DNA from: Corbicula japonica
Taxonomy: Eukaryota; Mollusca; Bivalvia; Venerida; Cyrenidae
Direction of reading: 5' to 3'
Length of the DNA: 64,000 bases
Assembly (NCBI GenBank): GCA_038501625.1
Contig: JAZAYU010000262.1
Coordinates: 496,001 to 560,000, forward strand
Every line of letters starts with the position of its first letter. The first letter of the stretch is position 1. Positions 5,971-49,854 of the stretch are shown piece by piece. The notes under the pieces were generated by a model, which did not search any database, was not told the origin of the DNA, and saw nothing but the letters and a program-made list of their open reading frames with translations. The translations under genes and the position numbers were made by a program.

Positions 5971-6657
5971 AAATTTCCACTTATATTAGCAGAGTAGCTG
6001 TATGCTATATCTAAGCCTTGGGTTCGAGTCCTACACATCGTCAATGCCATTAGCTGGTCAGATTTCATTTGACCAGTTCTGTCCAGTCTACGGTATCCAG
6101 AGTTAATTCAACGCAATACCTTATCGCTTTCCCACACCAAATTAAAACGAAAGCAATCGATATTACTATCTAAACTGCAATGTTACACTTACTGTTCGTG
6201 TTGATAATTGCAGTAAAAAAATAAAAAAAATGCGTCAATTTCCATTGTTTAGAATGCTTGGGAAAGCGGTGTAAATGTCATTTTGTCACTCTGTATTTTA
6301 ATTAATTAACCCAAACCTACTACCGTAATACGCATCGCTACGGTGGAGTCTACTGTTAGACACTAACTCTGTGACAATATTAGGATTTAATCAATGTAGA
6401 AACTTATTTACCTTAATGTTTTGGCGAGTTAAATCTTAATTGTTTCTAACATATGGAAGGAGAACTTCTGAAAATCCGAATCGAGAAACAAAATGGCGGC
6501 TTTTCAGTTTTAAAATCCGGAACCAAACATTCTGGACTATTGCACCCGGATGAAAGTCATATTGTCCAATCAGAAAGCCTAATTTGCAAACCGCAAGACA
6601 AGGTTTCAAAGTTTCAAGGTACTGCTTTTTGCTTCCGTAAAAGTGGGGAGAAATGTA

Positions 6658-6765
6658 GTAGATTTCGTACCAGCGGCCTCGGTAGCTCAGTTGCTAGAGC
6701 GTCGACACTGTAAGCCGGAGGTCCGAGGTTCAAATCCTGTTCTAAGCTACTCTATCCAGCACAAA
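6658..6765 (+). mobile_element. tRNA-derived SINE head (second copy)
   Basis: Shares its lead-in and tRNA-like region with the element at 2848: GCGGCCTCGGTAGCTCAG as A-box region and AGGTTCAAATCC as B-box. The downstream body differs or is lost. Acceptor arms do not pair, so a working tRNA gene is unlikely. Confidence 0.6.
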
Positions 6766-7242: not shown

Positions 7243-8398
7243 TGTTTTAACTTCTTTCTGAAAATATTGTCATAGATTACACCGAAAAAAACATTAATGT
7301 TTAATTTGATATGCATGTATCTAAAAGAATCAAATTCTGCATGCTTAAACAATAACATAAGCTTCCTTTTTTATAACAGAACTACTTTGATGCAAATCAT
7401 AAGAATATAACACACAAAAATATAACGTTTAAGGATTTATGCAACAGACTCACTAAAATGTTTCATTGTCATTATGTCAGTGTAATCTATCCTCAGCGTC
7501 GCAGCAAATATATGCAATCCTTTTCTCCTTTTCTCCTTGACTGTGCGCTTTTTATAGTAGTTTCTTACAAAAATTGCATATACAATTATTTGAAGAAGTA
7601 CATTACAATTTGTCGAATATAACAATGGTTTACGCAACTAACATCTCACTTGCAAAACGTCGCCAAAGAAACGATTTCAACTAGATCCGAGTGTACTCTG
7701 TCTCGATTTATGGTTACCCATACTTTTGATTTTATTTCATGTTAAACGATCCAAGGAAAAGCGAGAAACAATAAGCGATCACTTTCATCTGGTCTTGAGA
7801 TTGTGTGTACAAGCGGCCATTCTTTGTCACGTTATTCCCAAACTTTAATAATGTGCTGCCAAACTTTATATGTTCGGAGTTCGGTCTGTTGTATTTTTAT
7901 TCTGCGGTCAAAGGAACAAGAGCGTTTTCAAAGTATTACTTTTAATTGCTTTTCATTGTTTATCTATTAAATAAATGAAAAAGGGAACTTTGAAAGCCAC
8001 CAAACACGACCAATATTAAAATATTGCAGGCTCGGTTTAATTGAATTTGTATATGAGTAGTCTAAATCATCTATACATTCGGTAATTGATCAGTATCACA
8101 CTGCTCTGACGAACGTCTAGGGACATCGCTATATAAAAAGTCTGACCGGCGCTTTTGGTTCCCGACTTCAGTTCATCGCGATTTCTAATGAAATTAGTTA
8201 ACACTATAATTTACATACTATGACATTTCGATAATGTGATCATATCCAAGCTACAAAATCATGTATATGGTTTATAGCAAAGGCGTTTTAAATCACATGC
8301 CACTTTACTATACATAAATGATTGCAAATATATGCGACGCCGTTGCTGCCACAATTTCATTATCGTTATTAGACTCCTACTAAGTCGTTATCAGTAAA
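7243..8398. other. No gene seen; short dispersed repeat at 7978..8065
   Basis: Non-coding. The stretch at 7978..8065 (AACTTTGAAAGCC ... AAATATTGCAGGCTC) matches 25047..25110 and so is a dispersed repeat of unknown type. Confidence 0.5.
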
Positions 8399-8401
8399 AC
8401 A

Positions 8402-8859
8402 TAATCATGCATGCGCAGTTAAACACTCTATATCTTTAAAACCACAGACAAGAATGCTCACCCATCATTACCTACATGTACATGTTATTATGTCTGTGCA
8501 TCGTGATGTTACTTACGTTCGTGCATCATTATGATATGTCAATGCATTATTACTTTATGTCTGTGCATCATTTTCGTTATTTGTACACATCTATATGTTG
8601 TGCCCGTTTAACATATGTTATGATAATGCATAATCATGCATGCGCAGTTAAACATTCTATATCTTTAAAACCACAAACAAGAATGCTCACCCATCATTAC
8701 GTACATGTACATGTTGTTATGTCTGTGCATCGTGATGTTACCTACGTTCGTGCATCATTATGATATGTCAATGCATTATTACTTTATGTCTGTGCATCAT
8801 TTTCGTTATGTGTACACATCTATATGTTGTGTCCGTTTAACATATGTTATGATAATGCA
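8402..8859. repeat. 229-bp tandem duplication
   Basis: Two adjacent ~229-base copies starting TAATCATGCATGCGCAGTTA at 8402 and 8631, differing by a handful of substitutions. Each is rich in TGTGCATC and CATCATTA submotifs. The open frame across it (8476..8763) repeats the same peptide and is not supported as a gene. Confidence 0.85.
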
Positions 8860-9907: not shown

Positions 9908-10376
9908 TAAAAAGGTGAAATATGCATATCAGGAATCGCCACATTCAGAAAAAACAGCCTCCCCACACAGTCAAGAAGAAGAGAGGGGGAGAGAGCATGG
10001 TTAATAAAATAATCAGTTTCAAAAAAGACACCACTAACAATAAACAAAAATGAGAACCCGAGGGGTTACCGCCTTGGAACGGTCAGTGGCAAATCAAATT
10101 GCCACTGGGGGTTTAAACCAGGTTCTAGGGTGCACCAACCTCACACTTGCCCCAACAGGTTCTCATATCACAAAACAAGTACAAGTTGTCTTGGTGAAAA
10201 GACTCCAACCCACTTATCTGCTTAACAATGTTGCATGCAAAAGCACACAAACATATAAAACATAAGAAGCTAAGAGCATTGCAAAGCCGAAAGGGGTACT
10301 CAATGATCTTACCGAGACCAGAGCTCCTGGAGTAAAATCAGCAAGAACACGATGACAGGGATAAAAGAAACAAATC
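9908..10376 (-). other. Naiad 3' UTR and 3' terminus (unit A)
   Basis: Non-coding 3' part. Its last 220 bases (10127..9908) are the segment repeated as the pseudo-LTR at the array's 5' end. The 3' tip, ATATGCATATTTCACCTTTTTA, is also found as isolated relics elsewhere in the window. Short plus-strand frames here are antisense shadows. Confidence 0.75.
10084..10107. repeat. 9-bp perfect hairpin in the pseudo-LTR
   Basis: CAGTGGCAA / TTGCCACTG with a 6-base loop, next to a GGTTTAAACC palindrome and enclosed by AGAACC/GGTTCT pairing. Repeated at 14274..14297, 18464..18487 and 22654..22677. It is likely an RNA structure in the element's UTR. It is absent from the diverged relic at 43.86 kb. Confidence 0.6.
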
Positions 10377-10428
10377 GAGTTTCTAGGTTCTTTTAAGAAA
10401 AGATTTCCCCAATAACCTTCATAAACTC
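10377..10428 (-). promoter_or_regulatory. SECIS element (unit A)
   Basis: It begins at the base after the TAA stop. Helix I is GAGTTT/AAACTC. The SECIS core is ATGA (10422..10419) facing AGA (10384..10382), allowing tandem G.A pairs. Helix II is AGGTT/AACCT, extended past a mismatch by TT/AA and then GGGG against TTCT across an AA bulge. AAA (10406..10404) starts the apical loop exactly 12 bases above the ATGA core. These are all the parts expected of a eukaryotic SECIS. A diverged relic at 44150..44169 keeps ATGA and AAA at the same spacing. Confidence 0.85.
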
Positions 10429-13400
10429 TTAAACCCCTGCCACCGTCGTGCAACCAAAGAGGTAAGCATAATGATCAACTGTAGAAGGGTTAATCACCAG
10501 GCCTGCAGAGCGCTGTAAAATATCATGTTGGTAACCTTTCTTTTTAAATTTACAGATGGTTTTTACGAATAACCGGGAGAAATTAACACTGCCTTTAATC
10601 TTTTTAAGTTTATAAATTAAATCTCCATAAAAAACTGGTTGTGAAATACCTTGTTGCAAAAGTGATTTTAAACTGCATTTGTATTTATGAATTAAATCTG
10701 GGTATCGGCGATAAAACTTGCAAAAGGTTTTCCTTAATTTGTGATACCGATAACCTTGTTTTAAGAGTTTTTCTGTAATGCAAAGATTACGTTCATTGAA
10801 ATCATTAACATTGTTGCAAGCTCTTGAAAAGCGAACAAGCTGTGAGATATAAACCCCATAAGATGTTGCACGGGGAACATCGCCGTCTAAAAACGGAAAA
10901 TTTACTATATTAAAATTAAAATCATCTCTTTTATCATAAATTTTAGTAGTGACATAACCATTTTCAATGGACAGATTTAGATCGAGAAAGTTTGCTTGCT
11001 TTTCTGAAGTGTTCGCTTTGTTAAGTTGTAGTTCTTTGGGATAAATCTTATTAACCAGTAATGGAAAATGGTTATTGTCTATATTTAATAAATCATCAAG
11101 GTACCTCGAGGTGTTGTTAAAAGCTGTAATTATATCATCTTGATGTTCAGTAGAAAGAGATAACATAAAGTCTCTTTCATAACAGTATAAAAACAGATCA
11201 GCAACAAGGGGTGCACAATTAGTACCCATTGGGATGCCTATTACTTGTTTATAAATAGAGGTACCGAATCTAACATAAATATTATCCAGTAAGAAAGTTA
11301 GCGACTCTATAAGGTCTTGACAAGTCCATAATGTATAATTATCATAAGAACCATCTGTAAAAAATGCCCTATGTTCATTACAAGCGATGAAGGTTTTATT
11401 TTCTCTAGCAAACGTTTTTTCAATGAGACTGGTTAGTTTGTCTCTTATTAAATTATGAGGGAGCGAAGTGTATAATGTTGAGAAATCATAAGTAGACAAA
11501 CAGAACGCCCGAAAATTATTTGATTTAAGCTTTTTCAAAACGTCATTTGAATTTTTAATCGACCAAAATAAATTTTTGCCAGAAGTTTCAAAAACCTTAT
11601 CACAATACCTAATTACGTGTTCTTTTATAGCTGTAAGACAAGATGTTAAGAGCACGGATAATTTAGTAGTAGTGCAAGAACTAGAGTTAGCAATAAATCT
11701 TGCTTTATACGGTGTTTTATGCATTTTAGGTAACCAATACATAGTAGGTACTTTGTCTTGTTTCGGCTCAATACTGATTCTAAATTTTGTAATTTGTAGA
11801 GTGTGTGCAGTAACAATATCACTCTCAGATGAAGAAGTCAGTATATAAGCATTAGTGCTGTTCAGTTCTTCAGTTTGAATATTAATATAGTGTATTCGTC
11901 ACACTATAATTACATTATTAGAAGCCTTATCAGCAGGTGTTAAAACAAATCTGTTATGAAAGTCTTGAATTCCTTTTTTCAAATGACGAAAGTTAAAACG
12001 AGGTCGAGGTGGTAATAAAGCAATGTTTCTTTCATAAAATGATATACGGGTGTCAATTATTTTGAATATGTGCTTTTTCCAGTTAGAAAGTGCATTAGGC
12101 TCGGCATGTTCTCTTTTGCACCATTTATTGCAAAATAAGTTCAAAGACTCAGCAATTTCTGCACGGCATGCATTAAAGTCAATTTTGGATGATATTCTAT
12201 ATTTGGGACCTTTAGAAATTAAATTACGAATTCTAGAGTCTTTGATTAAATTAAGATCACCGGTAACAATATGACCGGCAGGCTTATAGCAATATTTAGA
12301 AGTTAAACACTCTCAAGATTTTGGTGTATTTTCAATGATCTGTAAATCCGATGTAATTTTATTGTAATTAAAAATTATATTTCTAGTTGGTTTGTTGTAT
12401 TTATAACAAACCATAGGCGATTCAGTATTCTTAAAATAAATAGGAACAGCCGATTGAACTCTTTTATCTTTAAATATACTAGGAAGGTCAATAAAATCTA
12501 TTCCTTTATTTAAAAAAGAAATTTTAAGGAAATGTCTTTGATGGTCCGATTCCAAGTCAATATGCGGCCTGAGAACATGCCGAGTATAACACTGAATAAG
12601 ACTAGCAACCTCGTAAAATGGATGGGTTCTAATGACGATGTCGTCGGCTTCCTCATCCAGTTTCTGCAGACTTGATATAGAAAGAGAAGCCAACCTAGAT
12701 AGCATAGCGTGTCTGCCAGATTGTTTTAAAATAATATGTAGGTCATGAATAGAACAACGAATACGTGATTTTCTTTTTATGTTTCCATTAGTTCTGCTTC
12801 CGTGCGACCTCGATTTTCTTTTACGTATTTCAAGTAATTCAAAGACGTCATAATCAGGATTTTTAGAAATGTTGCCTTCTTGATAAATATTATCATTTAA
12901 ACCAAGTGGGTAAGGAGTTTGTAATTTTTTAATCCATTTCTGCTCCGAAACGAGCCTGGCCCTGATTTTAAATGCTCTTGAAGCAGTGCTGTCAAATGTA
13001 AGTTTTTCTACTGGTTGAACGGAAATATTTTGTAAACGGTGTCCTGAATGCTTAAAGTGTTGGTATAAAAATGTTTTAAATTTGCTGTTGTTTCGAATTT
13101 TAGAACAATGTTGTCCAAAACGTGTTTTTAAAGGGCGACCTGTTTGTCCCACATATTGAATACCACAGTTATTAGAATTTCAAGTTAAAACGTAAACAAT
13201 ATTATCAGTTCGTCAGTCTATATCATTATTAATGTTAACTGAGAAAGTTCTGCCGTTAACTGTGGATTTAATGATAGAATTACAATTCAAATAATCACAG
13301 CATCTGCACCTCTTAGAATTGCACTTGAAAATAGAAGGATAAGGTCTGCGTCTTCCGTCATTCAATTTATTTGTTGTAGAAATATCATACTTTCGAAGAA

Positions 13401-13641
13401 TAGGCGATTTTAAAGGTGAAAGAGTAATTTTTAAATTGTTTTTAAATAAATTAGTACAATGAACCCTCTGCAGACCTGTCATATTGATAGAGCTTGCCGA
13501 AGATAAATTAATACGTGATAAACGAACCGAAGGCTGCAGACTTTTAAAAGATTTAATTTTATGCGGTGTTTGGACAGAAGACGCAGAAGATAGCCTTATT
13601 GGAGAAAGATTGATTTTCAATATTTTATTTTGTGCTGCCAT
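10429..13641 (-). CDS. Naiad selenoprotein: GIY-YIG endonuclease + CxC linker + reverse transcriptase (unit A)
   Basis: The frame runs from ATG (13641) to TAA (10429), 1070 residues, if four TGA codons are read as Sec at residues 143, 154, 443 and 581. Residues 143-235 hold the endonuclease: VYVLT and QYVGQTGR (GIY and YIG motifs), Arg174, Glu233, and a CCHH-type finger in which Sec154 stands for the first Cys, with Cys159 and probably His195/His201. Residues 250-440 form a basic linker. Residues 443-445 are Sec-Glu-Cys, the clade's CxC motif with its first Cys replaced. The RT follows: KGPKYR, ADKASNNVIIV then Sec581, YWLPKMHK, motif A with Asp719, motif B GIPMGTNCAP (802-811), motif C YLDD (847-850), then thumb. 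The protein should copy element RNA and prime at nicked DNA. An in-frame stop lies 12 codons before the ATG, supporting this start. The alternative, a nonsense-ridden pseudogene, fits poorly: all four stops are TGA, there is no frameshift and a SECIS follows. Confidence 0.9.
11899..11901 (-). other. In-frame UGA, predicted Sec581 in RT fingers (unit A)
   Basis: TGA directly after ADKASNNVIIV and before RIHYINIQ; relatives usually have Cys after this strand (DKA.NNvvvVC). Copies at 16089..16091 and 20279..20281. Confidence 0.85.
12313..12315 (-). other. In-frame UGA, predicted Sec443 in the CxC motif (unit A)
   Basis: TGA between ENTPKS and ECLTSKYCY gives Sec-Glu-Cys at the position of the clade-defining CxC linker motif, just before GHIVTGDL and KGPKYR. 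Copies at 16503..16505 and 20693..20695. Confidence 0.87.
13180..13182 (-). other. In-frame UGA, predicted Sec154 in the endonuclease CCHH finger (unit A)
   Basis: TGA between YVLT and NSNNCGIQYVGQT, the place of the first Cys in the usual LITCxxC.xxYVGQT block. A zinc-coordinating selenolate would be unusual. Copies at 17370..17372 and 21560..21562. Confidence 0.85.
13213..13215 (-). other. In-frame UGA, predicted Sec143 (unit A)
   Basis: TGA between ...NINNDID and RTDNIVYVLT. Penelope-like endonucleases usually have a Cys just before this strand. Copies in the other units: 17403..17405 and 21593..21595. Confidence 0.82.
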
Positions 13642-14097
13642 AATGAAATATGTAGAAAGAATACCATTATATGATCAGCGACTTTAGGTTGCATTGAATT
13701 TCTCAAGTGACGTCACAACGTAATACGTGTATAGACAGTAAAGCGCGCTAAACACTATATTCTATAAATAGCACGCTGATCAATGTCCATAAATATTAAC
13801 GTCCTGAATCACTGATCCCAAAGGAATGGGACTGTAAAAAGAGTACTAAAATACACCAAAATGACCAATTCTGGTTCCAGAAAGCGTATAATAATAAATC
13901 AATTTAAACGCAACAGAAAGTCGGTGAAAATATAACCTTCAATGTGGTATATAATAGTAAATGAGTGAGTGGGGAGGGGGTGTGGAAAGTGAATGTCAAA
14001 TGCAGTCCCTGAGGGATGAAAAGATAACAGTATTGAATGTAAGTACGGGGAGACGTTTTACGGCCGCCACACAGCACATACACAACTACTGTGATTA
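13642..14097 (-). other. Naiad 5' UTR (unit A)
   Basis: 456 bases between the unit boundary at 14097/14098 and the ATG. An in-frame TGA lies 12 codons upstream of the ATG. It contains T/C-rich tracts and no ORF that I trust. The internal promoter probably lies here or in the preceding pseudo-LTR copy, but I cannot point to it. Confidence 0.6.
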
Positions 14098-14566
14098 TAA
14101 AAAGGTGAAATATGCATATCAGGAATCGCCACATTCAGAAAAAACAGCCTCCCCACACAGTCAAGAAGAAGAGAGGGGGAGAGAGCATGGTTAATAAAAT
14201 AATCAGTTTCAAAAAAGACACCACTAACAATAAACAAAAATGAGAACCCGAGGGGTTACCGCCTTGGAACGGTCAGTGGCAAATCAAATTGCCACTGGGG
14301 GTTTAAACCAGGTTCTAGGGTGCACCAACCTCACACTTGCCCCAACAGGTTCTCATATCACAAAACAAGTACAAGTTGTCTTGGTGAAAAGACTCCAACC
14401 CACTTATCTGCTTAACAATGTTGCATGCAAAAGCACACAAACATATAAAACATAAGAAGCTAAGAGCATTGCAAAGCCGAAAGGGGTACTCAATGATCTT
14501 ACCGAGACCAGAGCTCCTGGAGTAAAATCAGCAAGAACACGATGACAGGGATAAAAGAAACAAATC

Positions 14567-14618
14567 GAGTTTCTAGGTTCTTTTAAGAAAAGATTTCCCC
14601 AATAACCTTCATAAACTC
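14567..14618 (-). promoter_or_regulatory. SECIS element (unit B)
   Basis: Same stem-loop as in unit A: GAGTTT/AAACTC helix, ATGA/AGA core, AAA apical loop, immediately after the TAA. Confidence 0.85.
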
Positions 14619-17600
14619 TTAAACCCCTGCCACCGTCGTGCAACCAAAGAGGTAAGCATAATGATCAACTGTAGAAGGGTTAATCACCAGGCCTGCAGAG
14701 CGCTGTAAAATATCATGTTGGTAACCTTTCTTTTTAAATTTACAGATGGTTTTTACGAATAACCGGGAGAAATTAACACTGCCTTTAATCTTTTTAAGTT
14801 TATAAATTAAATCTCCATAAAAAACTGGTTGTGAAATACCTTGTTGCAAAAGTGATTTTAAACTGCATTTGTATTTATGAATTAAATCTGGGTATCGGCG
14901 ATAAAACTTGCAAAAGGTTTTCCTTAATTTGTGATACCGATAACCTTGTTTTAAGAGTTTTTCTGTAATGCAAAGATTACGTTCATTGAAATCATTAACA
15001 TTGTTGCAAGCTCTTGAAAAGCGAACAAGCTGTGAGATATAAACCCCATAAGATGTTGCACGGGGAACATCGCCGTCTAAAAACGGAAAATTTACTATAT
15101 TAAAATTAAAATCATCTCTTTTATCATAAATTTTAGTAGTGACATAACCATTTTCAATGGACAGATTTAGATCGAGAAAGTTTGCTTGCTTTTCTGAAGT
15201 GTTCGCTTTGTTAAGTTGTAGTTCTTTGGGATAAATCTTATTAACCAGTAATGGAAAATGGTTATTGTCTATATTTAATAAATCATCAAGGTACCTCGAG
15301 GTGTTGTTAAAAGCTGTAATTATATCATCTTGATGTTCAGTAGAAAGAGATAACATAAAGTCTCTTTCATAACAGTATAAAAACAGATCAGCAACAAGGG
15401 GTGCACAATTAGTACCCATTGGGATGCCTATTACTTGTTTATAAATAGAGGTACCGAATCTAACATAAATATTATCCAGTAAGAAAGTTAGCGACTCTAT
15501 AAGGTCTTGACAAGTCCATAATGTATAATTATCATAAGAACCATCTGTAAAAAATGCCCTATGTTCATTACAAGCGATGAAGGTTTTATTTTCTCTAGCA
15601 AACGTTTTTTCAATGAGACTGGTTAGTTTGTCTCTTATTAAATTATGAGGGAGCGAAGTGTATAATGTTGAGAAATCATAAGTAGACAAACAGAACGCCC
15701 GAAAATTATTTGATTTAAGCTTTTTCAAAACGTCATTTGAATTTTTAATCGACCAAAATAAATTTTTGCCAGAAGTTTCAAAAACCTTATCACAATACCT
15801 AATTACGTGTTCTTTTATAGCTGTAAGACAAGATGTTAAGAGCACGGATAATTTAGTAGTAGTGCAAGAACTAGAGTTAGCAATAAATCTTGCTTTATAC
15901 GGTGTTTTATGCATTTTAGGTAACCAATACATAGTAGGTACTTTGTCTTGTTTCGGCTCAATACTGATTCTAAATTTTGTAATTTGTAGAGTGTGTGCAG
16001 TAACAATATCACTCTCAGATGAAGAAGTCAGTATATAAGCATTAGTGCTGTTCAGTTCTTCAGTTTGAATATTAATATAGTGTATTCGTCACACTATAAT
16101 TACATTATTAGAAGCCTTATCAGCAGGTGTTAAAACAAATCTGTTATGAAAGTCTTGAATTCCTTTTTTCAAATGACGAAAGTTAAAACGAGGTCGAGGT
16201 GGTAATAAAGCAATGTTTCTTTCATAAAATGATATACGGGTGTCAATTATTTTGAATATGTGCTTTTTCCAGTTAGAAAGTGCATTAGGCTCGGCATGTT
16301 CTCTTTTGCACCATTTATTGCAAAATAAGTTCAAAGACTCAGCAATTTCTGCACGGCATGCATTAAAGTCAATTTTGGATGATATTCTATATTTGGGACC
16401 TTTAGAAATTAAATTACGAATTCTAGAGTCTTTGATTAAATTAAGATCACCGGTAACAATATGACCGGCAGGCTTATAGCAATATTTAGAAGTTAAACAC
16501 TCTCAAGATTTTGGTGTATTTTCAATGATCTGTAAATCCGATGTAATTTTATTGTAATTAAAAATTATATTTCTAGTTGGTTTGTTGTATTTATAACAAA
16601 CCATAGGCGATTCAGTATTCTTAAAATAAATAGGAACAGCCGATTGAACTCTTTTATCTTTAAATATACTAGGAAGGTCAATAAAATCTATTCCTTTATT
16701 TAAAAAAGAAATTTTAAGGAAATGTCTTTGATGGTCCGATTCCAAGTCAATATGCGGCCTGAGAACATGCCGAGTATAACACTGAATAAGACTAGCAACC
16801 TCGTAAAATGGATGGGTTCTAATGACGATGTCGTCGGCTTCCTCATCCAGTTTCTGCAGACTTGATATAGAAAGAGAAGCCAACCTAGATAGCATAGCGT
16901 GTCTGCCAGATTGTTTTAAAATAATATGTAGGTCATGAATAGAACAACGAATACGTGATTTTCTTTTTATGTTTCCATTAGTTCTGCTTCCGTGCGACCT
17001 CGATTTTCTTTTACGTATTTCAAGTAATTCAAAGACGTCATAATCAGGATTTTTAGAAATGTTGCCTTCTTGATAAATATTATCATTTAAACCAAGTGGG
17101 TAAGGAGTTTGTAATTTTTTAATCCATTTCTGCTCCGAAACGAGCCTGGCCCTGATTTTAAATGCTCTTGAAGCAGTGCTGTCAAATGTAAGTTTTTCTA
17201 CTGGTTGAACGGAAATATTTTGTAAACGGTGTCCTGAATGCTTAAAGTGTTGGTATAAAAATGTTTTAAATTTGCTGTTGTTTCGAATTTTAGAACAATG
17301 TTGTCCAAAACGTGTTTTTAAAGGGCGACCTGTTTGTCCCACATATTGAATACCACAGTTATTAGAATTTCAAGTTAAAACGTAAACAATATTATCAGTT
17401 CGTCAGTCTATATCATTATTAATGTTAACTGAGAAAGTTCTGCCGTTAACTGTGGATTTAATGATAGAATTACAATTCAAATAATCACAGCATCTGCACC
17501 TCTTAGAATTGCACTTGAAAATAGAAGGATAAGGTCTGCGTCTTCCGTCATTCAATTTATTTGTTGTAGAAATATCATACTTTCGAAGAATAGGCGATTT

Positions 17601-17831
17601 TAAAGGTGAAAGAGTAATTTTTAAATTGTTTTTAAATAAATTAGTACAATGAACCCTCTGCAGACCTGTCATATTGATAGAGCTTGCCGAAGATAAATTA
17701 ATACGTGATAAACGAACCGAAGGCTGCAGACTTTTAAAAGATTTAATTTTATGCGGTGTTTGGACAGAAGACGCAGAAGATAGCCTTATTGGAGAAAGAT
17801 TGATTTTCAATATTTTATTTTGTGCTGCCAT
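14619..17831 (-). CDS. Naiad selenoprotein, unit B
   Basis: Identical in translation to the unit A protein: 1070 residues, ATG at 17831, TAA at 14619, four UGA (Sec) codons at 17403, 17370, 16503 and 16089. The endonuclease finger, CxC motif and YLDD catalytic motif are unchanged. It has its own SECIS and 5' UTR, so it is potentially independently active. The lack of any difference from units A and C points to very recent amplification, or to an assembly effect. Confidence 0.9.
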
Positions 17832-18756
17832 AATGAAATATGTAGAAAGAATACCATTATATGATCAGCGACTTTAGGTTGCATTGAATTTCTCAAGTGA
17901 CGTCACAACGTAATACGTGTATAGACAGTAAAGCGCGCTAAACACTATATTCTATAAATAGCACGCTGATCAATGTCCATAAATATTAACGTCCTGAATC
18001 ACTGATCCCAAAGGAATGGGACTGTAAAAAGAGTACTAAAATACACCAAAATGACCAATTCTGGTTCCAGAAAGCGTATAATAATAAATCAATTTAAACG
18101 CAACAGAAAGTCGGTGAAAATATAACCTTCAATGTGGTATATAATAGTAAATGAGTGAGTGGGGAGGGGGTGTGGAAAGTGAATGTCAAATGCAGTCCCT
18201 GAGGGATGAAAAGATAACAGTATTGAATGTAAGTACGGGGAGACGTTTTACGGCCGCCACACAGCACATACACAACTACTGTGATTATAAAAAGGTGAAA
18301 TATGCATATCAGGAATCGCCACATTCAGAAAAAACAGCCTCCCCACACAGTCAAGAAGAAGAGAGGGGGAGAGAGCATGGTTAATAAAATAATCAGTTTC
18401 AAAAAAGACACCACTAACAATAAACAAAAATGAGAACCCGAGGGGTTACCGCCTTGGAACGGTCAGTGGCAAATCAAATTGCCACTGGGGGTTTAAACCA
18501 GGTTCTAGGGTGCACCAACCTCACACTTGCCCCAACAGGTTCTCATATCACAAAACAAGTACAAGTTGTCTTGGTGAAAAGACTCCAACCCACTTATCTG
18601 CTTAACAATGTTGCATGCAAAAGCACACAAACATATAAAACATAAGAAGCTAAGAGCATTGCAAAGCCGAAAGGGGTACTCAATGATCTTACCGAGACCA
18701 GAGCTCCTGGAGTAAAATCAGCAAGAACACGATGACAGGGATAAAAGAAACAAATC

Positions 18757-18808
18757 GAGTTTCTAGGTTCTTTTAAGAAAAGATTTCCCCAATAACCTTC
18801 ATAAACTC
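18757..18808 (-). promoter_or_regulatory. SECIS element (unit C)
   Basis: Same structure and same distance from the stop codon as in units A and B. Confidence 0.85.
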
Positions 18809-21800
18809 TTAAACCCCTGCCACCGTCGTGCAACCAAAGAGGTAAGCATAATGATCAACTGTAGAAGGGTTAATCACCAGGCCTGCAGAGCGCTGTAAAA
18901 TATCATGTTGGTAACCTTTCTTTTTAAATTTACAGATGGTTTTTACGAATAACCGGGAGAAATTAACACTGCCTTTAATCTTTTTAAGTTTATAAATTAA
19001 ATCTCCATAAAAAACTGGTTGTGAAATACCTTGTTGCAAAAGTGATTTTAAACTGCATTTGTATTTATGAATTAAATCTGGGTATCGGCGATAAAACTTG
19101 CAAAAGGTTTTCCTTAATTTGTGATACCGATAACCTTGTTTTAAGAGTTTTTCTGTAATGCAAAGATTACGTTCATTGAAATCATTAACATTGTTGCAAG
19201 CTCTTGAAAAGCGAACAAGCTGTGAGATATAAACCCCATAAGATGTTGCACGGGGAACATCGCCGTCTAAAAACGGAAAATTTACTATATTAAAATTAAA
19301 ATCATCTCTTTTATCATAAATTTTAGTAGTGACATAACCATTTTCAATGGACAGATTTAGATCGAGAAAGTTTGCTTGCTTTTCTGAAGTGTTCGCTTTG
19401 TTAAGTTGTAGTTCTTTGGGATAAATCTTATTAACCAGTAATGGAAAATGGTTATTGTCTATATTTAATAAATCATCAAGGTACCTCGAGGTGTTGTTAA
19501 AAGCTGTAATTATATCATCTTGATGTTCAGTAGAAAGAGATAACATAAAGTCTCTTTCATAACAGTATAAAAACAGATCAGCAACAAGGGGTGCACAATT
19601 AGTACCCATTGGGATGCCTATTACTTGTTTATAAATAGAGGTACCGAATCTAACATAAATATTATCCAGTAAGAAAGTTAGCGACTCTATAAGGTCTTGA
19701 CAAGTCCATAATGTATAATTATCATAAGAACCATCTGTAAAAAATGCCCTATGTTCATTACAAGCGATGAAGGTTTTATTTTCTCTAGCAAACGTTTTTT
19801 CAATGAGACTGGTTAGTTTGTCTCTTATTAAATTATGAGGGAGCGAAGTGTATAATGTTGAGAAATCATAAGTAGACAAACAGAACGCCCGAAAATTATT
19901 TGATTTAAGCTTTTTCAAAACGTCATTTGAATTTTTAATCGACCAAAATAAATTTTTGCCAGAAGTTTCAAAAACCTTATCACAATACCTAATTACGTGT
20001 TCTTTTATAGCTGTAAGACAAGATGTTAAGAGCACGGATAATTTAGTAGTAGTGCAAGAACTAGAGTTAGCAATAAATCTTGCTTTATACGGTGTTTTAT
20101 GCATTTTAGGTAACCAATACATAGTAGGTACTTTGTCTTGTTTCGGCTCAATACTGATTCTAAATTTTGTAATTTGTAGAGTGTGTGCAGTAACAATATC
20201 ACTCTCAGATGAAGAAGTCAGTATATAAGCATTAGTGCTGTTCAGTTCTTCAGTTTGAATATTAATATAGTGTATTCGTCACACTATAATTACATTATTA
20301 GAAGCCTTATCAGCAGGTGTTAAAACAAATCTGTTATGAAAGTCTTGAATTCCTTTTTTCAAATGACGAAAGTTAAAACGAGGTCGAGGTGGTAATAAAG
20401 CAATGTTTCTTTCATAAAATGATATACGGGTGTCAATTATTTTGAATATGTGCTTTTTCCAGTTAGAAAGTGCATTAGGCTCGGCATGTTCTCTTTTGCA
20501 CCATTTATTGCAAAATAAGTTCAAAGACTCAGCAATTTCTGCACGGCATGCATTAAAGTCAATTTTGGATGATATTCTATATTTGGGACCTTTAGAAATT
20601 AAATTACGAATTCTAGAGTCTTTGATTAAATTAAGATCACCGGTAACAATATGACCGGCAGGCTTATAGCAATATTTAGAAGTTAAACACTCTCAAGATT
20701 TTGGTGTATTTTCAATGATCTGTAAATCCGATGTAATTTTATTGTAATTAAAAATTATATTTCTAGTTGGTTTGTTGTATTTATAACAAACCATAGGCGA
20801 TTCAGTATTCTTAAAATAAATAGGAACAGCCGATTGAACTCTTTTATCTTTAAATATACTAGGAAGGTCAATAAAATCTATTCCTTTATTTAAAAAAGAA
20901 ATTTTAAGGAAATGTCTTTGATGGTCCGATTCCAAGTCAATATGCGGCCTGAGAACATGCCGAGTATAACACTGAATAAGACTAGCAACCTCGTAAAATG
21001 GATGGGTTCTAATGACGATGTCGTCGGCTTCCTCATCCAGTTTCTGCAGACTTGATATAGAAAGAGAAGCCAACCTAGATAGCATAGCGTGTCTGCCAGA
21101 TTGTTTTAAAATAATATGTAGGTCATGAATAGAACAACGAATACGTGATTTTCTTTTTATGTTTCCATTAGTTCTGCTTCCGTGCGACCTCGATTTTCTT
21201 TTACGTATTTCAAGTAATTCAAAGACGTCATAATCAGGATTTTTAGAAATGTTGCCTTCTTGATAAATATTATCATTTAAACCAAGTGGGTAAGGAGTTT
21301 GTAATTTTTTAATCCATTTCTGCTCCGAAACGAGCCTGGCCCTGATTTTAAATGCTCTTGAAGCAGTGCTGTCAAATGTAAGTTTTTCTACTGGTTGAAC
21401 GGAAATATTTTGTAAACGGTGTCCTGAATGCTTAAAGTGTTGGTATAAAAATGTTTTAAATTTGCTGTTGTTTCGAATTTTAGAACAATGTTGTCCAAAA
21501 CGTGTTTTTAAAGGGCGACCTGTTTGTCCCACATATTGAATACCACAGTTATTAGAATTTCAAGTTAAAACGTAAACAATATTATCAGTTCGTCAGTCTA
21601 TATCATTATTAATGTTAACTGAGAAAGTTCTGCCGTTAACTGTGGATTTAATGATAGAATTACAATTCAAATAATCACAGCATCTGCACCTCTTAGAATT
21701 GCACTTGAAAATAGAAGGATAAGGTCTGCGTCTTCCGTCATTCAATTTATTTGTTGTAGAAATATCATACTTTCGAAGAATAGGCGATTTTAAAGGTGAA

Positions 21801-22021
21801 AGAGTAATTTTTAAATTGTTTTTAAATAAATTAGTACAATGAACCCTCTGCAGACCTGTCATATTGATAGAGCTTGCCGAAGATAAATTAATACGTGATA
21901 AACGAACCGAAGGCTGCAGACTTTTAAAAGATTTAATTTTATGCGGTGTTTGGACAGAAGACGCAGAAGATAGCCTTATTGGAGAAAGATTGATTTTCAA
22001 TATTTTATTTTGTGCTGCCAT
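18809..22021 (-). CDS. Naiad selenoprotein, unit C (5'-most)
   Basis: Third identical copy: ATG at 22021, TAA at 18809, UGA (Sec) codons at 21593, 21560, 20693 and 20279. This unit directly follows the 220-base pseudo-LTR, the position a promoter-bearing partial copy would drive, so it is the best candidate for the expressed copy (inference). No truncation or frameshift is seen. Confidence 0.9.
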
Positions 22022-22477
22022 AATGAAATATGTAGAAAGAATACCATTATATGATCAGCGACTTTAGGTTGCATTGAATTTCTCAAGTGACGTCACAACG
22101 TAATACGTGTATAGACAGTAAAGCGCGCTAAACACTATATTCTATAAATAGCACGCTGATCAATGTCCATAAATATTAACGTCCTGAATCACTGATCCCA
22201 AAGGAATGGGACTGTAAAAAGAGTACTAAAATACACCAAAATGACCAATTCTGGTTCCAGAAAGCGTATAATAATAAATCAATTTAAACGCAACAGAAAG
22301 TCGGTGAAAATATAACCTTCAATGTGGTATATAATAGTAAATGAGTGAGTGGGGAGGGGGTGTGGAAAGTGAATGTCAAATGCAGTCCCTGAGGGATGAA
22401 AAGATAACAGTATTGAATGTAAGTACGGGGAGACGTTTTACGGCCGCCACACAGCACATACACAACTACTGTGATTA

Positions 22478-22697
22478 TAAAAAGGTGAAATATGCATATC
22501 AGGAATCGCCACATTCAGAAAAAACAGCCTCCCCACACAGTCAAGAAGAAGAGAGGGGGAGAGAGCATGGTTAATAAAATAATCAGTTTCAAAAAAGACA
22601 CCACTAACAATAAACAAAAATGAGAACCCGAGGGGTTACCGCCTTGGAACGGTCAGTGGCAAATCAAATTGCCACTGGGGGTTTAAACCAGGTTCTA
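22478..22697 (-). repeat. Pseudo-LTR: 220-bp 5'-truncated Naiad copy
   Basis: Identical to the 3' 220 bases of each unit (for example 9908..10127). It starts TAGAACCTGGTTTAAACC and ends CACCTTTTTA on the minus strand, abutting the 5' UTR of unit C. It carries the 9-bp hairpin at 22654..22677. Confidence 0.9.
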
Positions 22698-26500: not shown

Positions 26501-29500
26501 CGACGACTGTTGATTTAAACTAGACTCATAGTGTTTACCCACAATGAGTTCATTTCTATACTAAATTATACTTTATTAAAGGATTTTGTTTCTAAAAGAA
26601 TCCAAATAACCCAGTAAATGATGTCTTCTTTGGTCAGTTGATTGTTTGTTTTTAAAAAAATTTACCTTCACAGATGCTTTGTTCTCTTCAAGTCTCGATA
26701 TCAATTCAACGTCTAATCTTATACCGCTGTAATGTTTTAGAGTATAAACATTTGAGGGTTGGTGTCACAGATGCAGGAATATTACATTTTCAATTGTAGT
26801 GAATAGTCAAGCACATCATCATTAGTACATAATTATCGTTTTTAAATTATAAATTCTTCTTTAAAGAGTTGCTATGACACACATTATTACGTATTTCCTC
26901 GTCACAAGAGCAAGATATTTCTTTTCTTTACTTGATAAATTGATATGATGTTAAAAAAAATATCACATAATAAACGTTTTAATTATTATTATCAATAATT
27001 GTGTATCTGACATCAATATGAGTGCTTAATCATATAAACCAATTTATAATGTCAGGTATTAGAGTCCAGTTTCAAGAAAATTCAGCTGTAAATGTAATTT
27101 TGTACAGGTATTTAAATATATTTGGACTTATCCACAAAATGAATTATTAAATAATATTAAACTAGCTTATGTCGAAAATAACTAGATGTGCTTAGCCTAG
27201 CACTTTACCTGTTTAGGAATCTAACGATGGCCTTGTTCGAAAGGACCTAGCTCAGTAGCAAAAAAAAACGGATAATAGTTTCTCTAAATTAGGAGAGTTG
27301 TCAGGAGCTTGCATTTCCAATATTTCTACTTCTCTTTTAAATCTGTACTCTTTTTTTCTGAATTCGATTACTTTCATCTCTGTTTTTATTTCCAATTTCA
27401 AATAAACAGCTTTGGATGTGTTGGTCCTATCTGAAAGCGTTGCATCATACAACTTCTTTGAAGCCTTCAAAACCCAATTCGGTGGTAAAATAAACATGAC
27501 ACAAATTACAATAGACGAATGGAACCAAAACATGGACAATAAAAAGCAGGGGCTTATCATTTGCGTTCAAGATTCAAGAATCAACGTAGATCTCAAACCG
27601 GTTAATAAATTGAAAGGTGAGTATTGTTTAATAAAATTTAGCGAATAAGATCATACACTGAAAGGAGGGTTTTAATTGTTCTCTTTGTAAAGTATAGTTG
27701 TTGTAAAGGACCATATCATATTATCAAAATCACGTTCAAACATCTTTTAACAATATCCGATGAAAATCATTAAGGGCTTGCCACACTCCTCCCAACTTCG
27801 TTCATCGATAAAAAGAAAATTCTCAAAATCTCAATAATGGCAAAATGCTGTTCAATGAAACTTTGCACAAATGAAAGTTACTAATGTATCTTTATTTTGC
27901 ACACAGTAAGACACGTTAGAAAAGTAAAGAAAAAAAGCTAGACCTAAAAATTCCTTAAAATTCTATTTACATAAATTCATAAAAACTAAGCGATACAAAA
28001 CATAATTTTAAATTCCCACGTGAGCGCAATGATACTGACAAGAAAATGTTGTGTACTTTGTAAAATATTTTCAGCTACTAAAAGAGAAATCAGTGATTGT
28101 TATCCGTTTACGCGACCAGGAAGCGACCGGGAAATTGAAGGTCAATCACACTTTTACTAATATCTCGTAAAGTTTAGTACATATGTAAGTCACGAGGACA
28201 CAATAAACTGTTGTCAGTATCATCTTACTCATGTGGGCATTAAAATGATGTTGTGTGTTGTTTAGTTTTTGTGAATTTATGTAAATAGTAGTTTAGGGAA
28301 TTTTTAGATCTCACTATTTATCTTTACTGTTCTAACTTGTCTTACCATCTGCAAAATAAAGATTCATTAAAAACATACATTTGTGCAAAATTTCATTTAA
28401 CGGCATTTTGCCATTATTGAGATTTTGATAATTTTCTTTTTATCGATAAACGAAGATGGGAGGAGTGTGGCAAGCCCTTAAAATCGATTCATAGATGGCA
28501 GATAAAACCTTTCATATACTGTTACCGAAATACAAAATTCAAAGAAACGGTAAATCGCATTGATAAGGCAATTAAAATTTTTGTGTTCGTGTCGGCGAGT
28601 TAAAATGTCGAGGTGACGAAATGCGTATTTGTTGGTGTTGGTGGGTCGAAATACACAGGAAACAAAACAAAACAAAAGGTCGAAAGCTACTTAATTGTCG
28701 AGGCGAAGAAACGAAGTAACGAAACATTGAGAAAGGCAAGATATGCGTAGCAGGAATGGTCGCATCTAAAAGACACTGCGTCCCCACAAAACCAAAAAGT
28801 AGAGAGAAAAAAAGAGCACGGTTTATAAATTGACCATTTTCAAAAAGAAAATACAAAGAATAAACAAAAATAAGAGGGGAATACACGAACTTTTATATTA
28901 ATCACTTTTCGTATTCAGTGGATACCAAAACTTCGTGTGGTCACCTCCTTTTTTTATATCTTCGTGTATTCGCCTCGAATGTCAAACGGCGAACACACGA
29001 CAGAAAACCAGTTTCGACCAATCTGCTTATTCGTTCTTTCGACCTGTCGACACAAACACACGATAGATGTGTAATTTCGCCCTTTCGTGTAATCGCCTTC
29101 CTATAAGCATGCGCATAACAATTATACAGTTGATGCTGACATCAAAGTAGATGTATAGCAGTTTATTGTCAGACAACTGTTCAGAAATATATCGCATAAA
29201 AATGTAATGTTATACAGTGTATTCCATCGTGACAGATTTTCAAGCCTTGGCACGTCCGTATCGGCATTAGTCGCACATGTATTTTACCTAATACTTACAA
29301 GCCTACTATATTTTTAATAGTAAAATACATCTTTTAAGAGATAGATCAGCTTGGGTTTTTACTTTGTTTTATTGATCTTGAATGAAAAAAGGTACACTAT
29401 CTACATGTACCTTACATCAGTCACAGTTAATTGTTCATTTAGCTTAACATAATAATAAGTTAACTTTGTTTACTTCCAACTGTTTTTTTTTTCTTTCATA

Positions 29501-36974: not shown

Positions 36975-37150
36975 TAAAAAAGTGAAATATGCATATCAGA
37001 AATCGCCACACTCACAAAACACAGCCTCCCCACGCAGCGAAAACGAATAAAAGGATGTTTGTTATAAGTATGTCATTTCAAATAAGACGCCACAAACAAT
37101 TAACGAAAAAGAGAACCTTTGGGGATACCGCATTGGAACGGTCAACATAA
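36975..37150 (-). mobile_element. Diverged Naiad pseudo-LTR relic
   Basis: GTGAAATATGCATATCAGAA, ACAGCCTCCCCACGCAG, GACGCCACAAACAAT and CGCATTGGAACGGTCAA blocks follow the order of 9908..10085. Substitutions and a loss of the 9-bp hairpin region are visible. Minus orientation. Confidence 0.85.
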
Positions 37151-43690: not shown

Positions 43691-43814
43691 GTACAGCTAG
43701 ATTTATCTCCCTTTGTAACTAAGTACAATCCAATACACTACACACAGACTCACCACATTGCCATACAGCAAAGTGGAAACAAAAGCATGAATTTTATATA
43801 ATTATGATCAATTT

Positions 43815-44190
43815 CAAAATCTACACAACAAACAATAAACGAAAATAAGAATCTGGTTACCGCCGCTGGGGATTTAAACCAGGTTATAGGGTACACCAGC
43901 CTTACACTTTCCCCTAATTCGCATTAAAAATAAATACAAACTGTCTAGTGAACAAGTTCCAACCATCCATCAACTCGTCAATTTTGCATGCAAAAGCACA
44001 AAAACATAAAGTATATGACAATGTAATGAAACTTATGTGCGTTTCAATAACCTTACTGAGCCCATAGCACCTGGTCCATATGTTATCAGCAAAATAAACA
44101 ATAGCAGGGATAAAACAAACAGATCAAAAGTTGGCGTTCTTTTTTCAAGATTTCCCTTGAAATCTTCATAATATCTGCTGTGCATTTAAA
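43815..44190 (-). mobile_element. Diverged Naiad 3' UTR relic with SECIS core
   Basis: Follows 10020..10430 block by block: GGATTTAAACCAGGTTATAG, CAACTTTGCATGCAAAAGC-like, GCAAAATAAACAATAGCAGG, TTCTTTTTTCAAGATTTCCC. ATGA (44169..44166) and AAA (44153..44151) keep the 12-base SECIS spacing on the minus strand, with an AGATTTC/GAAATCT stem. The pseudo-LTR hairpin is missing. Confidence 0.85.
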
Positions 44191-46180: not shown

Positions 46181-46714
46181 TGTAGCACTTTATTTCTCCT
46201 TGATCGTATAGTGGATTTTTAAATAAGAGAACACTGTCCTGTTTCTACCGTTTATTACTTCTATAAGTTACTACTAGCCCATCCAAAATATTCCGCGATT
46301 TATTATCTAAGTACCCAAAACTTTCTAAGACTCAACTTCTCCAGATCTAACCCAAAACTCAAAACTCTTCATGACTAGCTTTCCAAAACTTCCATAACTT
46401 AAGCTTTCTAGATCAAACCCCAAACTTATCGAAAAACTCTTCGAAAAACTAAACTTTCCGAGGCCTGCCAGGTGTTATGTACCTGTTCAAAATTTGATTG
46501 ACAGGTAGACGCTCTCTAGCAGACTTGTTTAATCTGCCAGTGATAGCCAATGATAATTCTAGGAAAATTATTCTCCAGGTAAATTAGCATTGCTACTATC
46601 AGAAAGGCAAACAAAAGTGTTACGGTATTAAAGAAGCGAATTACTAACAGTTTAAACTTGTTCATACTAAAATATTAATGTCCTGACCCCTATTTTGACC
46701 CCTATTTTGTTACA
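46181..46714 (-). repeat. 3' LTR
   Basis: 534 bases, apparently identical to 49855..50388, with TG...CA ends on the minus strand. Confidence 0.92.
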
Positions 46715-47377
46715 TTCGTCCACCACTAAGTTGAAATAATGAATATTAATTTATTATTTTAAAACTAAATAAGTCCGTTCACTAGTATATAATAAAAAGA
46801 GTTTGTGCCTGTTAGTCTTTCTACTCACGACGGTTTTACTTAAATTACACAATAACACACGAATGAACGAGAATAAGCTTAAATAAATTACTTTAAAATA
46901 AAACACTAAGCCACTTCATGATCACAAGTTAATCCTCGTCTTGATCCGTCTCGAACGTGGAAATGTCCCAATAACTTCCGGTCTTCTTGTCGACGCGTGT
47001 TTAACAACAAGTCCCGAAATCAAATAACATAGATCCGTGTACTGGTGGCATTGTCTGATAGGGAAAAAGTTGTTTCATCTCTAAGAAGATTAAGTTTGTC
47101 CGTATTAACTTGTGCAGGTGTTCAATCGTTCATCTGGATATCATAATCGTTCTTGCTTTAGTTTTGTTGTTGCTGACGTTTAAACGTTCTAATTACTATC
47201 CTCAGTGGGAAACAGGTCTTCTTGGCCTATTGGGCTATAGATACAAATTTTGACAGCTCTGGTTTCCTATTAATATTTACAGCTAGTCCAGACTGAAGAC
47301 ATCTAAGCTAGATAAACACACAATAAAATGTTCATATCATTAGTGTACTTGCTAAATTAATGATAAGTTCTCAATGT

Positions 47378-48290
47378 TCACAGGTAAGTCTGGTAAATTG
47401 TCTCAGTTCCTGTTTTATCTTCTGTTGACAGACGTGGATATATCAGACGTATGATTCTATATACTGGTCTACGTGATGATGATGAGAGGGTTGTTTGTCC
47501 CTCTGCAGAAGAAACATTCTGCCCGGAAGTCTGAGCCGGCATCTCATTCAGTTCAATGTTCTTGGTCTTTGACGATTCATACTCACACAAACCTTTAGCA
47601 GAACAGAGTTTTGAAAAACATCCCCATTTTCGACAGAGGCACAACAAGGCAATTGCCAACGTTATCAACAAGAAAGTGCCAAATGATATTCCCCAATTTG
47701 GAATTTCAATTTCGCTTTCGTCTACCTGGTCTAAGTTATGTAACTCATTAATAAGGTGATCAAGTGGCATCTGGCGGATTTCTTTTAATTTCTCAGGCAA
47801 CTGAATAGAAGTGTAATTTTGAATTTTTTTTGGAAGGAAACAAACTAAGGCGATTTCTATGTTTAATTGGTTGCATTTTCAAATCATAGAAATTCTCGAC
47901 AATAGTTTCGCGTGTCTCATCCAAATATTGAACTTTTTTGTCTAAAGACTTAAATGCATTGACATACTCAACTTGGCGAGATTTCTCATAATATTTAACT
48001 ATGGCACTAACAAGCTCAGCGGCATTCTTAACGTCGACCTTAACTTTTATCAAAAATTCATCGAAAGGTTTAAGATCAACAACAATGCTTGCGAGCCATC
48101 TTGCACGACTTGTTAAAATTTCATTTATCTTCTGAAAGATAACGCTCTGCCTAATAAGAACAGACTCTGTTAAGCAAACAAGCTAAACGCCAAGTATGAA
48201 TGTTCTAATTTTCTGACAAATACAGAAAATAACTTGGGACTTCAACATTACAAAAACAAATATGTACAAAATGAACATTAGTGAAGCCAT
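47378..48290 (-). pseudogene. Env-like membrane glycoprotein gene, disrupted
   Basis: An ATG at 48290 starts a hydrophobic, signal-peptide-like stretch. A TAG near 48188 interrupts it. The frame continues through INEILTSRARWLASIVVDL to about 47800, shifts near an A8 run, and ends with a membrane anchor (FGTFLLITLAIALLCLC) and a ~75-residue cytoplasmic tail closing at 47378. The layout (signal, ectodomain, single anchor after pol) is that of env-like genes of LTR elements. Short for an env, so internal deletion is likely. Confidence 0.6.
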
Positions 48291-48906
48291 TAAAGCAAAC
48301 CACTCAATGCGTCCAATAAATTCTTCATCTTCTCACGTCTTGTTATCTTAGGGTGCTGCTGTTTACAATTTACAACAGCTGGCGTAATCTTACCGTTGAT
48401 AACAGACGTTTCTTTATTTGTATTCTCAGAAGCAATAGACGCCTCATTTATAGTGTTATCGGAAATAACACAGGTTTCATTCACTGTTTTATCTGGGAAA
48501 ACAGAAGTTCCATTTATGTTTAATGACTGCGAAACAGGTGTAGTTGATCGAGAAGAAAAATAACTGTCAGAATCAGATCCATTTTCAGAGGAATAATGGT
48601 CATGATTATCCCGTTCATTTATTCTTCTTTTCAACTCCATCAGCGGTATGTCAGATTCGTTATCTGAATTTTCTCTTTGTTTGCGGTATTTTTGGGCTAA
48701 CTGTGCTAATGGGATATTTTCTTCGTCATTCGTGTCGGAAGAACTTGATTCGTTACTGACAGGAGGTACAACATATTTTGTGTAGATCTTAAAGGACGAT
48801 TAGTTTGCTCTACCAATACGCGGTGGTACCTTTCAATTTTAAATACATGCTTATTGTATAAAAAGAGCATAGTCGCGTATGAACACGGTACTTCGATAAG
48901 CCTCAA
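48290..48906 (-). pseudogene. C-terminal tail of pol
   Basis: Two frames joined by a shift near 48770. The first ends in YHRVLVEQTNRPLRS. The second is acidic and Ser-rich with NIPLAQLAQKYRKQ and TRREKMKNLLDALSGLL, ending at TAA. The TAA overlaps the next ATG (TAATG). Read as the region after the integrase core; identity is inferred from position. Confidence 0.5.
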
Positions 48907-49403
48907 GGCAATTGTAATTCTACATTACAAATAAGGTTATATACACAAGCACGGAAACACAATTAAGATAATTGTTAATCAATTATGCAACTCATTCATT
49001 CACAGAAATTCTATAGTGCCAGCGTATTTAACGCCGTATGCATGAAAATGACATGCCTCCAAAACTGGAACACATTACAAATATGTAGCGTCAGCGTAAC
49101 CATCGCTGTAGACATATGACCATATGCCCTCCAAACAGAGCGCTACCGGTATATCGTTACAGAGGAAACCTACTTCACGAAATACCAAGGTCCTAATCCC
49201 AGACCTTCATCCTATATACGGTTCCTACTAACGTAGGGTATACATTAAAATATTCATTTGCATCCACTTATACAAACATTCGTACGTTGCTTTTTATTTT
49301 TATTTTTACTTTTTTCTATTTTTTATGTGTTTTTATTTTTTTAAACCTTAATTTGACCTAACAGTCTTGTCTTTTACTGTCAACCTTAGGTTCGCAAACG
49401 ATA
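48907..49403. other. Non-coding gap inside the LTR element
   Basis: Stands where the rest of gag and most of pol should be. Contains a T-rich tract (49290..49345). No RT or integrase motif is seen. Confidence 0.6.
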
Positions 49404-49640
49404 TTAAAAACTTATTTCTTTATTTGCCTGGTTTGCCACTAATGTTATACTTTCTTGAGTCATGCCAACCAAGAGAGCATACTTTTCAATACTTTTTATC
49501 CATTCTTTAAATTGTTTACTATCCCCATCAAAAGAAGAAACAACCTTGGCAACCCCTTGTGCACCCATAGTGGTGGATAATCCCGTCAATTTATCCCCTA
49601 AAGACCGAAAAATATTTACAAATTCTTCTTGTTCTGCCAT
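49404..49640 (-). pseudogene. Truncated gag (N-terminal 78 codons)
   Basis: Starts MAEQEEFVNIFRSLGDKL about 215 bases after the LTR. Contains SSFDGDSKQFKEWIKSIEKY, a typical start of the capsid region in metazoan LTR elements. A TAA at 49404 ends it far short of a full gag; the sequence beyond is not coding. Confidence 0.75.
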
Positions 49641-49854
49641 ATTTGCTAGAGTATAAAAGCGTACTCACGGTTGCAGTAGATATATCCAGGTTTATTAGAA
49701 ACTAAATTGAACAATGTCCAGCATTTCACAATTTACACGACAATGTCCAGCACTTTAGGATTTACACGATAATGTCCGGCATTTCATAGTGTCAGTTGGT
49801 CGCGACAAAACAGTCGACAAATCCTGGTCACGGCACCAAAATAGAATAACGTCT

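Follow-up and report, generated by a model that had tools for sequence, protein, structure and literature searches.

A Penelope-like element of Naiad layout in the bivalve Corbicula japonica very probably reads UGA as selenocysteine at four sites where its relatives use cysteine

Among Penelope-like elements, the Naiads are said to have been defined by Craig et al. in 2021 (Mol Biol Evol), and the Naiads of clams and spiders are reportedly selenoproteins independently of each other, each with several selenocysteines (Sec). Eukaryotic selenoproteins that depend on a selenocysteine insertion sequence (SECIS; RF00031) have UGA at cysteine (Cys) positions and an AUGA...AAA...GA hairpin in the 3' untranslated region (UTR). 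Here we describe a mobile element with UGA at such positions and a candidate hairpin of this kind, found in a 64,000-nucleotide stretch of the Corbicula japonica genome (contig JAZAYU010000262.1, positions 496,001 to 560,000; hereafter the window), in which three tandem units each hold an open reading frame (ORF) with four in-frame TGA codons. It differs from ordinary selenoprotein genes in being a mobile element with four UGA codons, and its candidate hairpin falls below the family cut-off and starts inside the stop codon. The element very probably reads UGA as Sec at four sites where relatives use Cys, and we are highly confident, from sequence comparison, that it is a young element of Naiad layout whose single 1070-residue protein would be made by decoding the four UGA codons as Sec with the host tRNA-Sec and a SECIS located 3' of the TAA stop. 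Since Naiad selenoproteins have reportedly been described in clams and spiders, it would be a further example and not a new kind. The features of the array and of its recoded frame are as follows.

9908..14097, minus strand, full element unit nearest the 3' end of the array (exact 4190-bp period)
14098..18287, minus strand, full element unit, middle copy, identical (exact 4190-bp period)
18288..22477, minus strand, full element unit, 5'-most copy, identical (exact 4190-bp period)
22478..22697, minus strand, 220-bp partial copy of the element 3' end, preceding the array when read along the element, pseudo-LTR-like (LTR, long terminal repeat)
10429..13641, minus strand, recoded ORF, 1070 amino acids plus TAA (repeats at 14619-17831 and 18809-22021)
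13641-13213, 13152-12313, 12144-11899 and 11742-10429, minus strand, ORF pieces in one frame
13213..13215, minus strand, TGA codon, predicted Sec143 (repeats at +4190 and +8380)
13180..13182, minus strand, TGA codon, predicted Sec154
12313..12315, minus strand, TGA codon, predicted Sec443, which opens the CxC motif (Sec443-x-Cys445)
11899..11901, minus strand, TGA codon, predicted Sec581

The first-pass annotation of this DNA had described four ORF pieces in one frame from 13641 to 10429 with only TGA as internal stops, which proved exact: the frame comprises 1070 codons with four TGA, no TAA and no TAG inside, and ends on TAA. Each of the remaining five reading frames of this DNA is interrupted by 52 to 146 stops, and in 1000 base shuffles of the recoded ORF the in-frame TAA and TAG codons together always numbered at least 37. 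The window copies do not differ from one another and cannot count as three separate observations; the independent evidence lies in other genomic copies and in relatives.

A search of the whole genome (1,069,688,145 bases in 1630 contigs, the window being C262:496001-560000) gave 36,341 first-look candidates, of which 43 were scored, each of them aligned along almost the whole query. Four or more in-frame TGA codons were present in 43/43, with exactly four and no other stop in 32, while the extra stops of the remaining 11 copies (eight TAA, three TAG and four TGA) follow the pattern that decay would give. At the covered sites the codon was TGA at residue 143 in 36/36 loci and at residues 154, 443 and 581 in 38/38 each, the 38 loci being 31 distinct copies by coordinates, three of them the window's own. 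Moreover, TGA was found within residues 192-580 in 105/106 scored copies, the exception being TTA at 443, and one TGA within residues 463-1070 in 71/71. Of 12 further loci, two of which coincide with L019 and L020, ten span the complete set of sites: nine of these have TGA throughout, and the tenth, a frameshifted copy, has TAA at 143; the two loci that cover only 443 and 581 have TGA at both. When an all-Cys relative was used as the query, at least four TGA codons were found in 44 of 46 scored matches, and the other two had three TGA and one TAA. The first-pass annotation, which had proposed decoding as Sec, had suggested looking for random TAA or TAG at these sites in other copies; the sites of the 38 loci turned out to be uniformly TGA, and the single TTA and the frameshifted TAA were the exceptions in the wider sets.

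The TGA codons could also be simple nonsense mutations of a decaying pseudogene family, which became fixed in an inactive master copy and then spread through the tandem array, and the three identical window copies, with their one shared history, agree with this. However, the extra stops of the scored copies are of all three types, and a sister subfamily of 12 copies (86-90% DNA identity to the window unit; of shared history, not independent) has TGA at the same sites. Between the window ORF and these 12 copies the synonymous divergence (dS) was 0.51-0.54 and the ratio of nonsynonymous to synonymous divergence (dN/dS) was 0.10-0.11. By segment, in three sister copies, dN/dS was 0.13-0.18 for residues 1-142, 0.10-0.11 for 155-442, 0.07-0.08 for 444-580 and 0.05-0.06 for 582-1070; read from codon divergence, these values show purifying selection acting on all segments between the UGA codons. 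Constraint in segments downstream of UGA codons implies that translation through UGA has mattered. In addition, relatives end at the same sites down to ∼51% identity for the middle piece and ∼46% for the first piece. On dN/dS together with site conservation we reject pseudogene decay and give it next to no credence. A further view, compatible with full recoding, is that recoding is real and that termination at UGA gives mainly short products, as four UGA codons in one mRNA are expected to cut the yield strongly. However, the reverse transcriptase (RT) segment past the last UGA is the most constrained, which argues that the full length, or at least translation downstream, has been selected, and a predominance of short products seems unlikely.

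A search with the whole protein found 253 related proteins, and the 120 matches listed were aligned with the query residues at the four sites masked to avoid a bias towards Cys. Cys occupied residue 143 in 41/43 covered rows, 154 in 40/45, 443 in 80/96 and 581 in 107/115, so that the Cys expected in relatives by the first-pass annotation was mostly found. Trp occurred in four rows at 443 and in eight rows at 581. Among the eight rows counted for Trp at 443 or 581, the other aligned Trp residues all match a query Trp in P0002, P0005, P0006 and P0014, and one to three are unmatched in the query in P0010, P0011, P0015 and P0105; a ninth row, P0118 (Cys-type part), which was not counted, shows Trp at 143 but also Trp without a query counterpart at other positions. 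A gene caller that uses a code with TGA as Trp writes Trp for UGA, so the sites in the Trp rows are most likely UGA in other genomes; the code used is deduced, and the Trp rows are the only place where the stop codon type in the relatives' DNA is visible.

These residues also bear on the possibility that UGA is read through not as Sec but as Trp, Arg or Cys, by a tRNA that is near-cognate or reassigned, for which speak the modest SECIS score described below and the basis of the Sec assignment, a comparison of sequences. However, where relatives have another residue at the sites it is mainly Cys, as expected for Sec but not for Trp or Arg; all six Trp codons of the element are TGG, with TGA nowhere else in the frame; a SECIS-like hairpin is in place; and the host has tRNA-Sec. 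Such read-through is therefore highly improbable, and UGA as Trp in particular was rejected, the Trp of some database relatives being best explained as translation with a TGA=Trp code. The genomic copies and the residues in relatives support the reading of UGA as Sec.

The end points of related proteins mark the same sites. With residues 155-442 as the query, 425 related proteins were found; among the 120 matches listed, 70 end at 442, 36 at 580 and 14 elsewhere, the protein end being taken as the alignment end plus the unaligned tail, which is at most three residues in 64 of the 70 proteins ending at 442. The rows reaching 443 have Cys in 38/41, Trp in two and Asn in one. With residues 1-142 as the query, 20 of 27 related proteins end at 142, three at 153 and three elsewhere; those ending at 153 have Cys at 143 in two cases and Gly in one, and one of the 27 has Trp at both 143 and 154. 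Because length restricted the candidates, these shares do not represent population frequencies, and the evidence is the sharpness of the end points. The viral contigs searched held no relative of the element protein. A search of genome contigs gave four loci, of which only L001, of Cys type, covers the sites (C, C, T, C); no SECIS match was found in the four, which probably come from host DNA contaminating symbiont and sediment bins.

In a FastTree tree (176 rows, residues 215-438, midpoint root), all rows scored as Sec (a stop or Trp) at 443 or 581 fell in one 115-row group with a branch support of 96, inside which many forks lack support. Parsimony gave 20 Cys/Sec changes at 443, with 13 forced by the starred (well-supported) branches alone under the main labels, and two at 581. 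The sampling behind these counts is biased by length, the state at 581 is missing for most Sec443 rows, the tree method is a quick one, and Cys581 relatives near the query that do not have residues 215-438 (e.g., P0007) are left out. We read this as repeated switching of site 443 between Cys and Sec and make no such claim for 581.

Decoding as Sec would depend on a SECIS in the message, and the 3' UTR contains one candidate.

10363..10430, minus strand, candidate SECIS element starting within the stop codon; also at 14553-14620 and 18743-18810

The Rfam SECIS_1 model (RF00031) matches this place with 20.2 bits and an expectation value (E) of 0.46, which refers to 841 bases and 4227 families and by our division corresponds to ∼1e-4 for SECIS_1 alone. 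A SECIS pattern (AUGA, a helix of at least nine, AA, GA; thresholds fixed after the candidate was seen) matches the 3' UTR once, where SECIS_1 does, while any match arose in 16 of 2000 dinucleotide shuffles; across the whole window, on both strands, it has two matches besides the three copies. In 14 sister 3' UTRs the core letters and spacing are kept in 13 and interrupted in one, and the three sister 3' UTRs scanned have a SECIS_1 match at the same place (18.2-19.4 bits, E 1.8-4.1 over all families). Among five distinct rows, each keeps nine pairs of the ten-pair helix and two pairs are changed on one side; the outer helix loses one pair in one row and the inner helix one pair in two rows, the rows being too similar for a helix shuffling test to have power. 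A large hairpin in the 3' UTR (z of the whole 3' UTR, -2.78) was rejected as the SECIS, being by eye without the AUGA/AA/GA layout. The hairpin at 10363-10430 is likely the SECIS, as a candidate and not a proven element. The host genome has four tRNA-Sec genes over the family cut-off (anticodon tca, 78.8 bits) and 36 further matches below it; twelve tRNA-Sec-like matches just under the cut-off form a tandem array with 2403-bp spacing at C6:5707433-5733948.

Two diverged fragments of the element's 3' end lie elsewhere in the window.

43733..44176, minus strand, diverged relative of the element 3' UTR, 64% identical, no ORF match beside it
36975..37144, minus strand, second diverged fragment of the element 3' end, 77-78% identical

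Several observations weigh against the interpretation given here. The SECIS_1 scores (18.2-20.2 bits) fall short of the Rfam gathering score of 35, and an Rfam scan of the full 64 kb with E up to 5 did not list a SECIS at 10363-10430. No pair of the SECIS helix is changed on both sides in the five distinct rows, the minimum-energy fold of the region prefers another pairing, and the 43733-44176 relative keeps AUGA, AAA and GAU with a helix that looks broken by eye. At 443, 7/96 covered relatives among the 120 matches listed have Pro, and a few have other residues. Furthermore, in comparisons with four near-identical copies of the element the changes (0-4 synonymous and 2-7 nonsynonymous) are not numerous enough to reveal selection.

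The proposed course of events is that the tandem array would be transcribed, that the host would decode the four UGA codons as Sec under one SECIS, and that the resulting protein would nick DNA and reverse-transcribe its own RNA. In this scheme Sec would actually be inserted, and a single SECIS would presumably serve all four codons. The element's expression might then be linked to the supply of selenium, as the first-pass annotation proposed.

The predicted protein has an endonuclease domain and RT motifs.

12919..13200, minus strand, GIY-YIG endonuclease, residues 148-241 (PF01541, E 4.4e-05, 24.1 bits; cut-off 22.6)
11092..11487, minus strand, RT motifs A-C with D719, GIPMGT and Y847-L-D-D850

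In a 69-row alignment, whose rows we chose from the hits, D719, G806, Y847 and D849 are invariant and D850 is kept in 52/53 covered rows. RVT_1 was matched in two of 14 alignment members and not in the query protein itself; a PDB search with the single sequence gave no match, and a PDB profile search gave one weak match, a GIY-YIG enzyme (E 0.02). Cys/His columns of the query kept in more than 90% of covered rows are 107, 112, 115, 143, 154, 159, 178, 195, 201, 443, 445, 457, 581, 613, 641, 656 and 729; for instance, Cys stands at 154 in 36/36 covered rows, at 159 in 37/38, at 443 in 51/54 and at 445 in 54/54, and His at 195 in 46/46 and at 201 in 42/45. We infer clusters 107-112-115-143, 154-159-195-201 and 443-445-457, which likely bind metal, so that Sec143, Sec154 and Sec443 would each sit in a different one; the fourth predicted Sec, 581, sits in the RT part.

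By its sequence the element is Penelope-like with a Naiad layout: it has an N-terminal GIY-YIG domain, a C-terminal RT and between them a CxC motif, which we take to be a Naiad-defining feature, and the 154-159-195-201 set is presumably the Naiad CCHH-type endonuclease set, an assignment made by reading. Tandem and partial-tandem copies also agree with Naiads, as does the hammerhead ribozyme search, in which no hammerhead family reached E 5 or better anywhere in the 64 kb. Literature word searches found no paper pairing "Penelope-like" with "selenocysteine" or "selenoproteins", and title listings none that links Penelope-like elements with Sec; the paper by Craig et al. lies outside the scope of both. 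What is added here is selection across UGA codons in one genome, Cys/Sec switching at 443, and the placement of three predicted Sec in separate Cys/His clusters. The Poseidon element PAc of Anolis, in contrast, has the canonical order with a C-terminal endonuclease and a hammerhead ribozyme, and the parts of its description consulted do not mention Sec (PMC11167929).

Bases 9908-18507 show no mismatch to the bases 4190 further on, so the three identical copies claimed by the first-pass annotation at +4190 and +8380 are an exact repeat, to which the partial copy at 22478-22697, omitted there, has to be added. The three units are identical either because they formed or were converted recently or because of a fault in the assembly; an assembly artefact is less likely because a genome search found a second three-unit array at C2:15964954-15976535, with matches 4189 apart. 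Tandem units and partial copies have been described for Penelope-like elements (PMC11167929), and the present array is presumably the product of template jumping or of the tandem insertion typical of such elements. An insertion bias towards microsatellites is a Naiad trait; here a GT-rich tract begins at ∼22956, ∼260 bp off the array end and not at the junction, an observation from one site only. Against the window unit, copies L018, L035 and L041 have a dS of ∼1.0-1.2 over residues 1-142 and of 0.28 over residues 582-1070; this fall from the N-terminal piece to the RT points to exchange between subfamilies, as if they exchanged 3' parts or switched templates.

Further features lie elsewhere in the window. 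A weak reverse transcriptase fragment at 52076-52324 resembles element residues 646-742 (37% identical, E 0.002). A 537-bp exact direct repeat, with copies 3674 bp apart and beginning TGTAGC like LTRs, bounds 46181-50391, probably a non-autonomous LTR-type element since there is no ORF of more than 140 amino acids between 43000 and 51500. Two tRNA-like repeats at 2844-2939 and 6654-6749, 82% alike, resemble short interspersed elements, the latter matching the Rfam tRNA model with 27.4 bits, short of the gathering score of 29. In addition, an inverted repeat at 27770-28481 has 242-nt arms, 88% complementary and 228 nt apart, and a 229-bp unit at 8395-8852 is tandemly duplicated (96% alike).

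To our knowledge, few mobile elements that depend on the host selenocysteine machinery are known. Sec might serve here as an evolutionary dial and not as a catalytic need: the number of UGA codons would set how far the full-length protein, and hence transposition, depends on host selenium and the Sec machinery, which would keep a high-copy element tolerable, a speculation that we consider doubtful. For annotation, the element is a warning, as the predicted proteins of its relatives are cut at UGA codons or show Trp there. Moreover, young, near-identical intact copies, a sister subfamily at a dS of ∼0.5 and relatives with Cys or Sec together constitute a natural experiment, which bears on why Sec replaces Cys at structural-looking sites and on whether messages with several UGA codons are translated efficiently.

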